Part shown: positions 3,747-8,445 of the stretch, in pieces
Layout: each line of letters starts with the position of its first letter
Position numbering within the stretch: the stretch's first letter is position 1
Assembly: GCA_015491865.1 (NCBI GenBank)
Contig: WFVD01000018.1
Coordinates: 62,001 to 126,000 of the forward strand
Source: Gammaproteobacteria bacterium
Lineage (GTDB): Bacteria; Pseudomonadota; Gammaproteobacteria; SZUA-140
Direction: 5' to 3'
Length of the DNA: 64,000 nucleotides
The notes under the pieces: model-generated
Databases searched by the model: none
Told to the model about the DNA's origin: nothing
The model's input: only the letters and a program-made list of their open reading frames with translations
Made by a program: the position numbers and the translations under genes

Positions 3747-3853
3747 CCATTTTTGACTGGCTTAATAAATGCATAGGGAAAGAGATGATTTGAGTAACAG
3801 GAGTCGTGACGGCTCTGACTTAAAAGTTTTGCAGGGTGGGGGATGGGAAGGGC

Positions 3854-4876
3854 ATGAATAAAAAACGATCGTCTGGCTGGTTGGGTCTATTAATAGCGCT
3901 ATTTTTCTCCAGCGTGGCGCTGACACAGGAAGCGATGCCGTGTGCTGATGGAATTGAGAGCCTGGATTACAGGGCCTATGACCTCCTAATGAAAGTTGAT
4001 ATTTTAGATGCTGATGTGGCGGCCTACCGGCAATTACTTGCCGAATGTGGTGCTGGGTATCAAAAATTTTCAGCGGGAAAGCGCCGTGAGTTTTTGCAGC
4101 TACTGAACACCTTGATGACGAGGGTCGATACTGTTTATCAGCGGCTCTCATCTGAAGAGATCTACCTGCCCGGCGGGTTGACCGATAAAGCTAAATTACG
4201 CCTCCAGCGGATTCTGGAGATAAAAGAGGCGATCAAGCAGTTTTATCTCACCATGTTGAGTCAGCATATTCCACTTGATAAAGGGTGGGGTGATACCTTT
4301 GTCTCAAATCTCTACCTGGGGTATGAGAGTGTCGATATTGATGCCTTTCCCCGTTATGGTGGCGGACGCTTTGGCGCTAATCTTTATTATCAGATGAACG
4401 GCTCACTTGATAAAAAAGGGATGTGGGGGCGACATATTTTTGGTGAGGCACTGTTGACGAACAGCGCGGAGAATTCAGTAGAGGCCGTGAATGAAGCCTA
4501 TGAAGTTGATCTTAACTTTTTTGCCCCCTATGCGATGGCGGGTGATCGCAAGGGGCGCTGGGCGTTAGGCCCTGTGGTTGGTCTGAAGATGAAGAAACTC
4601 AGCGGGATTAATGTTTCCCGCTGGGAGCATATGGCGGGGGTACGAGCGGCGCGCAGTGCTGATCTTTATATTGAGGGGCGTTATGGGCGGGTAGGTGGGG
4701 TCTCTGATCCGCGCATTGAGCTGCGAGGGCAGTTGCCGTTGATAATGGTATTTAAAGGTGATGTGATAGTCGGAGGGGTAGTGAACCTGAGCACTGAAAG
4801 CGCTGCCGGTAATGGTGATCTTATGCAGCTATACCTGGTCTGGCAGATTAATTTTATTGACCTCATGGAGTACTGA
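3854..4876 (+). CDS. Exported protein of unknown function, possibly outer membrane
   Basis: I do not recognise a family. The 340-residue product starts with a clear signal peptide (positively charged MNKKR then a hydrophobic core, cleavage near residue 24). The mature part has a helical, charged N-terminal region up to about residue 135. The C-terminal 200 residues are rich in glycine and aromatic residues with alternating hydrophobic strands (for example NLYLGYESVDIDAFPRYGGG and DLYIEGRYGRVGG), which suggests a beta-barrel. It ends in a tyrosine, a weak barrel-end signal. The start was set at the ATG at 3854 because GGGAAGGG precedes it; an in-frame GTG lies at 3836. The gene stands alone between the hemN terminator and the subtilase. 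Confidence 0.65.
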   Translation: MNKKRSSGWLGLLIALFFSSVALTQEAMPCADGIESLDYRAYDLLMKVDILDADVAAYRQLLAECGAGYQKFSAGKRREFLQLLNTLMTRVDTVYQRLSSEEIYLPGGLTDKAKLRLQRILEIKEAIKQFYLTMLSQHIPLDKGWGDTFVSNLYLGYESVDIDAFPRYGGGRFGANLYYQMNGSLDKKGMWGRHIFGEALLTNSAENSVEAVNEAYEVDLNFFAPYAMAGDRKGRWALGPVVGLKMKKLSGINVSRWEHMAGVRAARSADLYIEGRYGRVGGVSDPRIELRGQLPLIMVFKGDVIVGGVVNLSTESAAGNGDLMQLYLVWQINFIDLMEY

Positions 4877-4987
4877 TCCTGGCGAGTGTTGTCTGGGTCA
4901 CATAAAGCGCTAAATAGCGTATGGTAATATCATCTGGTTGGCCATTTTTTGGCTGTGAGCTCTTACTGCGGTGTTTTAGATGATCTC

Positions 4988-7918
4988 ATGTGGCGAGTGA
5001 ACGTATTCTTTTTTAACAGTGGCCACTACTTTCTGGGCATCACTGCGCTTTTTCTCCTGCTATCGATAGTGGGTTGTAGCAGTGGGGGAGGGGGTGGTAG
5101 CCCTGTAGAAACAGGCGTCCCTGTCGCCCGTTTCTCTGTTTCCCAGGTGTCAGGGGGCGTGTTGCTGGATGCCTCGGCGTCGTCGGATAGCGATGGTCAG
5201 ATCGTCTCTTATCAGTGGAGTTTTGGTGATGGCCAATCGGGAAGCGGCGTTACCATCGGCCACACTTACGCTGCTGCGGGCAACTATAATGTGGTGTTAA
5301 CCGTTACCGATAATGGGGGGAAGACAAATACCACCTCCAGGGTGATTAGTGTGAGCGGGCAGACACTTAGCGGGACGATTGGCGTTGCGCCTGGTGCCGT
5401 GGTTGATAGTGATGTTAATGACCCCAATGCTGCTTATGTCAATAACGACACCTACGATGTTGCCCAGGCGTTGCCTAATCCGGTTAACCTTGGCGGCTAC
5501 CTGAACGAAGCGGGTAGCGGCCCCAATGGCGACTCATTTTCTGTTGGCGACTATTCTGATTTTTACAGAATTAACCTGGTGGCCGGGCAGACAATCACTG
5601 TTTCGATTGAAGATGCTGTTCGTGGTAATTTAGATCTCTATCTCTATTATGACGATGGCACGGTAGACCCGGCCAATCCTGACTACGCCTCTATGGGCAC
5701 CGGTGGGGTCGAATCATTAACCGTGCCGGCAGATGGTGACTATTTCATTCAGGTCTCCGTGACGAGTGGCTACTCGGCCTATACGCTGGTTGTAGGGCAG
5801 GCAGCGCCGCTGAATGTCGTCGGTCAGCTGCGCTCAAATGACGCTTTTGTACCGGGTGATGTGCTGGTTAAATTTAGAGAGGGGCGATCGGAGGTATCGA
5901 CGATGAGCTTGCCCGAGGATAGCGCAGCAGCACTGGGACTGCAGCCAAAAGCGGGGGGCAGCAGCCATCGTCGCCCCCGCTTGATGAAGCTGGGTGACCC
6001 TGCCGAGCGAAATGCGACCTTTGCGACATTGGGACTGCTAGCTAATTCGGGACATCGGCAATTTCGCAGTAGTGATTCGGTCAAACAGCTCAAGCTCGAA
6101 ACATTGCAGGTGATTCAGGCGCTACGTCAGCGTGACGATGTGCTCTATGCAGAACCCAATTTCATTTACCAGGCGCAGGCCACCCCATCAGATCCCTTTT
6201 ATAGTTTTCAGTGGCATTACCCATTAATCAACCTGCCCACGGCGTGGGAGATGGCGCAGGGGGCGAATGTCACTGTTGCCGTCGTCGATACAGGTGTATT
6301 GCTGAGTCATCCGGATCTTGTGGGGCAGTTCTCCGCAGATGGTGGATATGATTTTATTATTGATGATGCCCGTTCGAATGATGGTGAGGCCGGCATCGAT
6401 GCCAATCCTGACGACCCTGGTGACAGTGCGGGTGCCGGCAGCTCATTTCACGGCACACATGTGGCGGGAACAATAGCCGCTGCAACTACCTTTTTACCCG
6501 CAACTGGCGCAACAGGGGTGGCCGGTGTGGCACCGGCGGCAAAGATTATGCCGCTGCGAGTGCTGGGGCAGAATGGTGGGACCAGTTACGATATTATGCA
6601 GGCTGTGCGTTACGCCGCCGGGCTGGTGAATGATTCCGGGGTTACTCTGAATAGCTCGCAACGTGCCGATGTGATTAACTTAAGTTTGGGTAGGGAGGGG
6701 GGGTACTCCCAGTTGGAGCAGAATCTCTACACCGAGGTGCGTAATGCGGGCGTCATCGTGGTGGCCGCCGCAGGGAATGCCAACAGTGGCGCCTTAAATT
6801 ATCCAGCCTCTTATGGCGGTGTTGTCTCGGTAGCCGCCGTCGATATCAACAAACAGAAAGCACCCTATTCCAGTTTTGGTACGGCCGTTGATGTGGCAGC
6901 ACCGGGTGGCGATACCCGTGTCGATATCAACGGCGATGGTTATATCGATGGGGTGTTAAGTACATTGGCTGATGATTCTGGTGGTTCGCTGCTCTTCAAC
7001 TACGGCTTCTACCAGGGGACATCGATGGCGGCACCCCATATGGCGGGAGTGGTGGCACTAATGAAGTCTGTCTATAGCGCATTAACGCCAGCGCAGCTCG
7101 ATCTACTGCTGTTAAATGGGTCGATTGTTGAGGATCTCGGTGCCCCCAATCGTGATGATATTTTTGGGCATGGGTTGATCAACGCCTTCAATGCGGTGGC
7201 CGAAGCGCAGGCGTTAGCACAGCAGCCTGTGGTCGATACGCCGCTGCTGGGGGTCTCCCCGGCGGCACTTAATCTGGGAGCAGTTGAAAGCAGCGGCACG
7301 CTTTCGGTCGGAAATGCAGGGAATGGGGTGTTGAGTATCAGCTCAGTGACTGAAGCAGCTTCGTGGCTAACGGTGGTTGCAGAGTCAGTGGATAGTGCTG
7401 GCCTGGGGCGTTATCGTGTGACCGTTGATAGGAGTGGGCTGATTCCCGGCACCTATCAGGAAAACATCACCTTTGTCTCTTCTACCAATACGGTGGTGGT
7501 GCCGGTGTTGATTCAGGTGGTAGCACAGAATGTTAATGCCGATGCCGGTTATCACTATGTGTTGCTGGTGGATGTGGCTGACTTCAGTGTTGTAGACCAG
7601 TGGAGTGGTCCTGTACAGGGCGGCCGATATCCCTATCAGTTCTATAATGTCGCGTTTCCAGAGGGGCGTGAATATTATATCGTTGCCGGTACTGACCTGA
7701 ATTTTGACGGCTGGATATGTGGCCTGGGTGAGGCCTGTGGGTCTTATTTCTCACTTGGCAATCTGCGTGCGATTGGTGTGGATGGCCCTTATTCCGGGCT
7801 CGACTTTACGACCGGTTTTAGTGCCGGTATTCAGGTCAATTCATTGTTGAAGGCGGGCGATCGTGCGCTGAAAAAAGGGCCACAATCAGAGACTAAGCGA
7901 CTGCGAAGAGAGAGATGA
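4988..7918 (+). CDS. Lipoprotein subtilisin-like serine protease with PKD and PPC domains
   Basis: A 976-residue secreted protease of the S8 subtilase family. From the N-terminus: a lipoprotein signal with the lipobox cysteine at residue 30 (LLSIVGC), a glycine/serine linker, a PKD domain (about 42-123, with YQWSFGDGQ and GNYNVVLTVTD), a bacterial pre-peptidase C-terminal type domain (about 165-270), a propeptide-like segment, and the protease. The triad is Asp434 (VAVVDTGV), His488 (HGTHVAGT) and Ser679 (GTSMAAPHMAG), so it should be active. The tail has a BACON-like repeat (about 755-845) and an unassigned domain. The ATG at 4988 was preferred for its compact lipoprotein signal; a TTG at 4949 is in frame. 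No GlyGly-CTERM tail is present. The stop overlaps the next gene by four bases. Confidence 0.92.
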   Translation: MWRVNVFFFNSGHYFLGITALFLLLSIVGCSSGGGGGSPVETGVPVARFSVSQVSGGVLLDASASSDSDGQIVSYQWSFGDGQSGSGVTIGHTYAAAGNYNVVLTVTDNGGKTNTTSRVISVSGQTLSGTIGVAPGAVVDSDVNDPNAAYVNNDTYDVAQALPNPVNLGGYLNEAGSGPNGDSFSVGDYSDFYRINLVAGQTITVSIEDAVRGNLDLYLYYDDGTVDPANPDYASMGTGGVESLTVPADGDYFIQVSVTSGYSAYTLVVGQAAPLNVVGQLRSNDAFVPGDVLVKFREGRSEVSTMSLPEDSAAALGLQPKAGGSSHRRPRLMKLGDPAERNATFATLGLLANSGHRQFRSSDSVKQLKLETLQVIQALRQRDDVLYAEPNFIYQAQATPSDPFYSFQWHYPLINLPTAWEMAQGANVTVAVVDTGVLLSHPDLVGQFSADGGYDFIIDDARSNDGEAGIDANPDDPGDSAGAGSSFHGTHVAGTIAAATTFLPATGATGVAGVAPAAKIMPLRVLGQNGGTSYDIMQAVRYAAGLVNDSGVTLNSSQRADVINLSLGREGGYSQLEQNLYTEVRNAGVIVVAAAGNANSGALNYPASYGGVVSVAAVDINKQKAPYSSFGTAVDVAAPGGDTRVDINGDGYIDGVLSTLADDSGGSLLFNYGFYQGTSMAAPHMAGVVALMKSVYSALTPAQLDLLLLNGSIVEDLGAPNRDDIFGHGLINAFNAVAEAQALAQQPVVDTPLLGVSPAALNLGAVESSGTLSVGNAGNGVLSISSVTEAASWLTVVAESVDSAGLGRYRVTVDRSGLIPGTYQENITFVSSTNTVVVPVLIQVVAQNVNADAGYHYVLLVDVADFSVVDQWSGPVQGGRYPYQFYNVAFPEGREYYIVAGTDLNFDGWICGLGEACGSYFSLGNLRAIGVDGPYSGLDFTTGFSAGIQVNSLLKAGDRALKKGPQSETKRLRRER

Positions 7919-8445
7919 AAGTACCAGCCTGTTTATTACTGGTGGTGATCGGAGTCGGTTCGGCAGCATGCACAGCCGGCACAGACCGAGATAACGCAGG
8001 AGGCGTGGTGGAGAGCCCCATCGCGGCTGAGGTGCTTTATTCAGGCACAAAATGTGGCCATCCTGATCCAGGGGTAGCGGTGAGTCTGGTCACAGATGAG
8101 CTGCAGCTGGCAAAGGTTTACAGCGGTTTTCGGAAGCAGGTGTTCGGGCTGCCACCCATGACGCTGCCAGAGGTCAACTTTAAGCGCGACATCGTACTGC
8201 TGGTCGAAATGGGGCTGCAGCCGACGCTGGGGTTTCGATTAATGTTGATGGATCACCCCTCCCCCCGGATCGTTGCGCAACATGCCGAGGTCACACTTGA
8301 GTGGATAACACCGCCCCCCAATATGGTGGTCGGTGAGATGTTAACCAGCCCTTGTCTGTTGTTGAAGCTAACGCGCGGCCCATATCAGGAGGTCTGGATT
8401 AATGATCATCTGGGGCAACACAGAGCGGTACTAACGGTGCCGTAG
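7915..8445 (+). CDS. PrcB-like lipoprotein, putative protease partner
   Basis: A 176-residue putative lipoprotein: a short hydrophobic signal ends in GSAAC, then a disordered linker. The body (about residues 90-176) resembles the PrcB C-terminal domain: the stretch DIVLLVEMGLQPTLGFRLML, an internal beta pattern, then TSPCLLLKLTRGPY. In Treponema denticola the lipoprotein PrcB is encoded with, and binds, the subtilisin-like protease PrtP (dentilisin). Here the gene overlaps the subtilase stop as ATGA, so coupled synthesis and a physical partnership are likely (inference). The expected glycine-rich tGGY loop is TLGF here, so the match is divergent. Confidence 0.7.
   Translation: MKVPACLLLVVIGVGSAACTAGTDRDNAGGVVESPIAAEVLYSGTKCGHPDPGVAVSLVTDELQLAKVYSGFRKQVFGLPPMTLPEVNFKRDIVLLVEMGLQPTLGFRLMLMDHPSPRIVAQHAEVTLEWITPPPNMVVGEMLTSPCLLLKLTRGPYQEVWINDHLGQHRAVLTVP

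Follow-up and report, generated by a model that had tools for sequence, protein, structure and literature searches.

The subtilases NalP and SphB1 each carry a translocator barrel within the same chain, and NalP is an acylated enzyme of the outer membrane. SphB1 is likewise an acylated outer-membrane subtilase according to extracts of a 2021 study of dentilisin (PubMed Central article PMC8167434), which are also the source of the following statements on Treponema denticola. In this organism, PrcB binds the subtilase PrtP, and in a non-polar prcB deletion prtP is still transcribed while the PrtP protein is not detected (PMC8167434). The purified dentilisin complex lacks the acylated N-terminus of PrtP, and lipid is kept only by PrcA1 and PrcB, which are proposed as the anchors of dentilisin (PMC8167434). 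Here we describe two overlapping genes, encoding a predicted lipoprotein subtilase (family S8, hereafter S8) and a small PrcB-like lipoprotein, in a stretch of 64,000 nucleotides, hereafter the window, from a gammaproteobacterium (assembly GCA_015491865.1, contig WFVD01000018.1, positions 62,001 to 126,000 of the forward strand). We favor, with moderate confidence, the reading that the two form an operon encoding an envelope subtilase and the PrcB-type subunit dedicated to it. In view of these findings on dentilisin, the role of a stabilizing subunit, and in most lineages of an anchor, is proposed for the PrcB-like protein. The features of the pair, in window coordinates, are:

4988..7918, + strand: lipoprotein subtilase (S8), 976 amino acids (aa), stop codon included in the coordinates
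4988..5077, + strand: S8 signal peptide and lipobox, predicted acylated Cys30 (...LLLSIVGC-SSGG; position +2 is not Asp)
5159..5341, + strand: PKD domain, accessory (Pfam PKD_4, 6.8e-20)
5555..5758, + strand: PPC domain, N-terminal of the catalytic domain (Pfam PPC, 6.3e-10)
5849..6178, + strand: propeptide-like region, weak fervidolysin NPro-like match (20 of 21 bits), approximate boundaries
Near 6178/6179, + strand: predicted processing site, residue 397/398, where the chains of solved relatives start
6260..7174, + strand: Peptidase S8 catalytic domain (Pfam, 1.7e-53), residues 425-729, with the catalytic triad D434, H488 and S679 assigned from motifs
7232..7522, + strand: Ig-like BACON/ASH/VesB-like domain after the catalytic domain (AlphaFold2 (AF2) model; BACON_2 / HYDIN_VesB in relatives)
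7550..7822, + strand: C-terminal domain with the motif AGTDxxxDxxICxxGEACGxY, conserved across the S8 subfamily alignments A5 and A6
7915..7918, + strand: ATGA start/stop overlap, probable translational coupling
7915..8445, + strand: PrcB-like lipoprotein, 176 aa, ATG start at 7915
7969-7971, + strand: PrcB-like lipobox Cys19 (residues 1-19, ...GVGSAAC-TAG)
8053-8055, + strand: PrcB-like invariant Cys47
8194..8370, + strand: PrcB_C match (Pfam PF14343)
8353-8355, + strand: PrcB-like invariant Cys147

The preliminary description of this locus had likened the second gene product to PrcB and proposed a PrcB_C search as its check. The window protein by itself scored 19.8 bits against PF14343 (E 9.5e-4, whole protein), missing the curated cut-off of 24, and 21.1 bits in a six-frame search. 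Against the NCBIfam model of T. denticola PrcB (denti_PrcB, NF033596) it scored 17.9 bits (E 0.0021), the equivalog cut-off being 125; all comparisons with Treponema PrtP and PrcB were made through such NCBIfam models. All 32 members of alignment A4, composed of 31 loci of the contig scan described below and the window (L098 was excluded for its doubtful start), matched both PF14343 (best 9e-14) and NF033596 (E up to 0.1, best 2.9e-14), and the protein of a genome of the same genus (G004) matched PrcB_C with 31.9 bits, above the cut-off. The proposed match thus holds for the family and falls short for the window protein taken singly. Because all its A4 relatives match, we conclude that the 7915-8445 product is, by these profile comparisons, a member of the PrcB_C family. 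Its AF2 model reached a mean predicted local distance difference test (pLDDT) score of 85, mostly above 90 past residue 30, and a predicted template modeling (pTM) score of 0.76. Foldseek comparison of this model with the PDB returned nothing at E 0.001 or better (best 0.23), and the A4 profile had 0 matches among PDB sequences. The best two VIA matches, both to Bacteroides proteins, 3nqi (Z 3.9, root-mean-square deviation (rmsd) 4.0, 91 aligned) and 3k6o (Z 3.7, rmsd 3.5, 90 aligned), were too weak, and a fold name was rejected.

To define how widely the two genes occur side by side, we used PF14343 as bait in a class sample of 369 genomes, and PF00082 was then sought in the matching genomes. 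A PrcB_C match was found in 58 genomes, and in 21 of these, as counted by eye from two tables, the gene just before PrcB_C, in the same orientation, encodes an S8. Chance would place an S8 gene ending at most 2 kb upstream on the same strand in 0.056 genomes, and chance adjacency was rejected. The S8 proteins of the 21 genomes are all close to that of the window, with the exception of G154, which is counted in the 21 and excluded from the sets of 43 and 41 pairs used below. At this locus (L060), an unlike S8 (664 aa, lipobox not found) directly precedes a PrcB_C protein that has neither of the two PrcB cysteines. When named contigs were scanned with a PrcB profile, 32 loci emerged, and in 26 a window-type S8 stands directly upstream; about nine of the 32 belong to genomes already in the class sample, and the two tests partly overlap. 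The contig-scan pairs include metagenome-assembled genomes (MAGs) labelled Desulfobacteraceae, Desulfatitalea and Desulfurivibrio, a Thioalkalivibrio MAG and Marinobacter daqiaonensis on contig NZ_FOYW01000001.1, and the six loci without an upstream S8 are SZUA-128 and five Ectothiorhodospira. The nearest named locus is that of the Chromatiales MAG HyVt-459 (PrcB-like 85% and S8 94% identical). Across the class sample, the window-type S8 subfamily adjoins PrcB in 13 families. In a wider phylum sample, PrcB_C was found in 8 of 398 genomes, three of which, from a single genus (f185) and kept out of the adjacency counts, have a window-family S8 upstream. Two apparent PrcB_C gene fusions, in frames of 1115 and 542 aa, were rejected, as they look like separate lipoprotein genes in long open GC-rich frames. 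The conserved adjacency anticipated by the preliminary description is therefore found in both searches; its picture of a feature private to one gammaproteobacterium is not supported, since the pair is widely distributed within the class and also present in Desulfobacterota MAGs. The recurrence of the S8-PrcB pair in many unrelated environmental bacteria suggests for the PrcB-like protein the role of a general partner to enzymes of this kind.

The ATGA overlap of two lipoprotein genes reported for the window (7915-7918, lipoboxes at Cys30 and Cys19) was confirmed, and the same spacing of -4 nucleotides (nt) occurs in 17 of 43 unique pairs, obtained after removal of duplicates between the class-genome and named-contig sets; in 34 of the 43 the genes overlap or are at most 10 nt apart. 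A promoter and terminator scan gave no signal above shuffles. The flanks of the window pair (hemN-like, aroC, MFS) are found solely in loci of the genus and the outer neighbors vary outside it, indicating that the conserved unit is the pair and not a larger block. Directly upstream of the S8 gene, 3836-4876 (+) encodes an exported protein of unknown family without a Pfam match, whose relatives by tblastn among 60 loci searched were only in HyVt-459 (94%) and FCS_M_Gamma_032 (55%).

The paired proteins share a common anatomy. The S8 family displays the order lipobox, PPC-like domain, propeptide, catalytic domain, BACON/VesB-like Ig domain and C-terminal domain with AGTDxxxDxxICxxGEACG. Of 11 S8 proteins scanned, those of the window, HyVt-459 and L089 gave a PKD match, and for the remaining 8 none was reported. 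The earlier assignment of a lipoprotein subtilase with PKD and PPC is thus correct for the window (Pfam matches, lipobox), and PKD, present in only 3 of 11, is not a defining part. A lipobox pattern is carried by 30 of the 33 paired S8s whose N-terminus is complete and by 35 of the 43 PrcBs, and by both proteins in 24 of 33 pairs. The PrcB cysteines Cys47 and Cys147 ([ST]xPC motif) are kept in 41/41 pairs tested, two of the 43 having been left out of this test and of the Mantel test as S8 fragments below 350 aa. The motif sets the S8-paired members apart from other PrcB_C proteins, being present in only 5 of the 23 unpaired class loci read (of 62 PrcB_C matches in the class sample, 30 were read as loci, L025 was scored on the wrong frame and L038 gave no match). 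A disulfide between Cys47 and Cys147 is plausible. PrcB and S8 distances correlate (r 0.79 over the 41 pairs, with 0 of 2000 permutations as high), a figure that includes shared species history. Among the 10 genomes of the genus, 7 have both genes, 2 have neither and 1 has PrcB beside an S8 remnant; G005 also gave a match of 21.7 bits, weak and located within a frame of 1371 aa, which was judged unrelated. In SZUA-128 (L075 5700-6507, QIHH01000159.1), an S8 C-terminus remnant with a stop precedes an intact PrcB frame, and the lipobox cysteine of this PrcB is lost.

The window S8 was taken to start at the ATG at 4988 (the default start of the open reading frame caller is the TTG at 4949), and its stop is the TGA at 7916-7918. 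It belongs to PF00082 (182.2 bits, cut-off 21.8), with the motifs VVDTG, FHGTHVAG and GTSMAAPH. It scored 84.2 bits against the NCBIfam denti_PrtP model (NF033595), below the equivalog cut-off of 300, and better, with 156 bits, against the NCBIfam mycosin model, likewise below its own cut-off. Its relatives in the PDB are 5yl7, 9goi and AprV2; the closest solved ones, alike in the catalytic domain, are secreted S8A proteases, namely the Pseudoalteromonas arctica PAMC 21717 enzyme (5yl7) and AprV2/BprV (3lpd, 3ti9), for which we know of no PrcB partner. The chains of the closest solved proteases start at query residue 398-400 (window ATPSDP, 5yl7 STPNDP). About 240 further residues extend beyond the catalytic domain. 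The AF2 model of the Ig-like domain gave VIA Z scores of about 10 to 2qsv and GH115 enzymes and of 9.4 to VesB, and the C-terminal domain was modeled with modest confidence.

These features are compatible with the following sequence of events. Both proteins would be exported, most of them lipidated, and directed to the outer membrane. Both are predicted outer-membrane lipoproteins, the residues after the lipid cysteines being TAG in the PrcB-like protein and SSG in the S8, which do not resemble inner-membrane retention signals. Of the surface anchoring put forward in the preliminary description, the outer-membrane location is thus predicted, on either face of that membrane. The subtilase would be made as a pro-enzyme, in which the lipid anchor, PPC (here with PKD) and the propeptide precede the catalytic domain. 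As the anchor, at residue 30, lies before the propeptide, a maturation like that of the relatives would free the enzyme from it, cleavage near residue 397/398 stripping away both propeptide and anchor. The protease would be bound by the PrcB-like protein and stabilized by it in folding; those PrcB-like proteins that bear a lipid of their own may also hold the mature enzyme at the membrane, in the manner proposed for PrcB towards PrtP. Type II GspD was matched in 43/43 genomes examined, in 39 of them above the cut-off. In the window genome (2.54 Mb, 31 contigs) GspD is full-length (586.9 bits, cut-off 351), so a route to the surface is available, and no more than that.

The locus thus parallels dentilisin in joining an acylated subtilase, which would lose its anchored N-terminal piece on activation, to a small acylated PrcB lipoprotein of the same family, both lipids being predicted from lipoboxes. 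This parallel, drawn in the preliminary description, gains from the PrcB homology, the two lipoproteins, the operon-like coupling and the adjacency. The differences are equally clear: the window order is S8-PrcB and that of T. denticola prcB-prcA-prtP, with no PrcA gene between the window genes; the window S8 is of another subfamily, with PPC before, and the BACON-like and GEACG domains after, the catalytic domain; and both window proteins remain below the NCBIfam equivalog cut-offs. By this comparison, the pair may work like the PrcB-PrtP part of dentilisin, yet it is not dentilisin by scores, by order or by PrcA position. It also differs from SphB1 and NalP, as no translocator barrel was annotated in the window S8 by the Pfam scan.

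Several observations weigh against a dedicated PrcB-type subunit, beginning with the sub-threshold PF14343 score of the window protein. The S8 subfamily, traced with the C-terminal profile A5, is present in 43 of the 369 class genomes. Once 8 weak matches were excluded from a total of 51, the remaining 43, of at least 128 bits, comprised 22 with an adjacent PrcB (two of which, in G308 and G070, are outside the PF14343 list), 20 without and 1 unread. A difference in S8 lipobox between paired and solo proteins was sought and not found; solo S8s are mostly lipoproteins too, and this S8 type can therefore dispense with an adjacent PrcB. The pair/solo state changes 10 times on the S8 tree, from which L149 is excluded. 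PrcB stands alone at five Ectothiorhodospira loci (L092-L095, L099), with the window-type S8 absent in 4 of the 5 genomes and, in one of these, no S8 match at all; orphan PrcBs are also found in f23 genomes. Finally, the lipobox is not recognizable in 8 of the 43 paired PrcBs, and those of L045, L051, L056 and L057 appear plainly secreted. As some PrcB partners have no lipobox, anchoring is not universal, and it cannot be the sole purpose of the PrcB-like protein. Taken together, these results show that the S8-PrcB partnership is common, not obligatory. At individual loci, we noted tandem lipoprotein subtilase copies without PrcB (L141 in G055, L143 in G318), two tandem PrcB-like genes with S8 copies elsewhere in the same genomes (L185 in G334, L189 in G119; f101), and, after the orphan PrcB of L092, L095 and L099, genes that we take from their translations to be lgt- and thyA-like.

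Alternatively, the PrcB-like protein might be an inhibitor, a safety catch keeping the subtilase inactive in the periplasm until it is in place. We consider this unlikely. The tight coupling, with the protease first and a small protein second, recalls some protease-inhibitor operons, the conserved loops GQxPTxGY and [ST]xPC could make a binding face, and in some pairs the lipobox is missing from the partner. The PTxGY loop could also be likened to chagasin-type inhibitors; chagasin is absent among the Foldseek and VIA matches listed, which excludes nothing. Against an inhibitor, the fold search gave no clear match to a known structure, inhibitor or other, proteases of this type also occur solo, with no PrcB beside them, and PrcB is retained in genomes that lack the S8 or have only a remnant of it. 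Moreover, in T. denticola the presence of PrtP requires PrcB rather than being restrained by it, as far as the extracts of that study describe (PMC8167434).

Slightly less likely still is that the PrcB-like protein serves the envelope in a way of its own, its co-transcription with the protease in many lineages being incidental. The orphan PrcBs of Ectothiorhodospira and f23, the tandem copies in f101 and the 37 of 58 PrcB_C class genomes without an adjacent S8 are in agreement with such a role. It accounts poorly for the same S8 subfamily neighboring PrcB in 13 class families and in Desulfobacterota MAGs, for the frequent start-stop overlap while the outer flanks vary, and for the loss of the PrcB lipobox cysteine in the single genome with an S8 remnant. 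A vertically inherited dentilisin operon, with true PrtP and PrcB orthologs, is suggested by the matches to both NCBIfam dentilisin models. It is nevertheless highly improbable, since the scores are far below the equivalog cut-offs (84 of 300; 18 of 125), the S8 fits the mycosin model better, the gene order is reversed and PrcA is not between the genes.

We therefore retain the two-gene operon of an envelope subtilase and its PrcB-type subunit as the preferred reading. It is known already, from database models, that the PrcB_C domain exists outside spirochaetes, and extracts of a paper on Kosmotoga mention a single PrcB-domain protein (PMC5674127). In agreement with the preliminary description, which regarded such a pair as undescribed, no description of PrcB paired with a lipoprotein subtilase outside Treponema was found in listings of open-licence PubMed Central papers and in the two papers cited here. 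What is added here is a PrcB-type lipoprotein in an operon with a predicted acylated subtilase across many environmental lineages. This distribution would open the part that PrcB plays in protease assembly to study in non-pathogens, through a comparison of lineages that have the partner with those that lack it. More tentatively, and at clearly less than even confidence, the pair may represent an anchor hand-over module of environmental Gammaproteobacteria and Desulfobacterota, in which a subtilase, having cut itself loose from its lipid anchor on activation, would be captured by a PrcB-type lipoprotein co-translated with it and stay active at the outer membrane, dentilisin being one pathogen’s variant of a general envelope protease system. 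If so, dentilisin would no longer be a specialty of oral treponemes.

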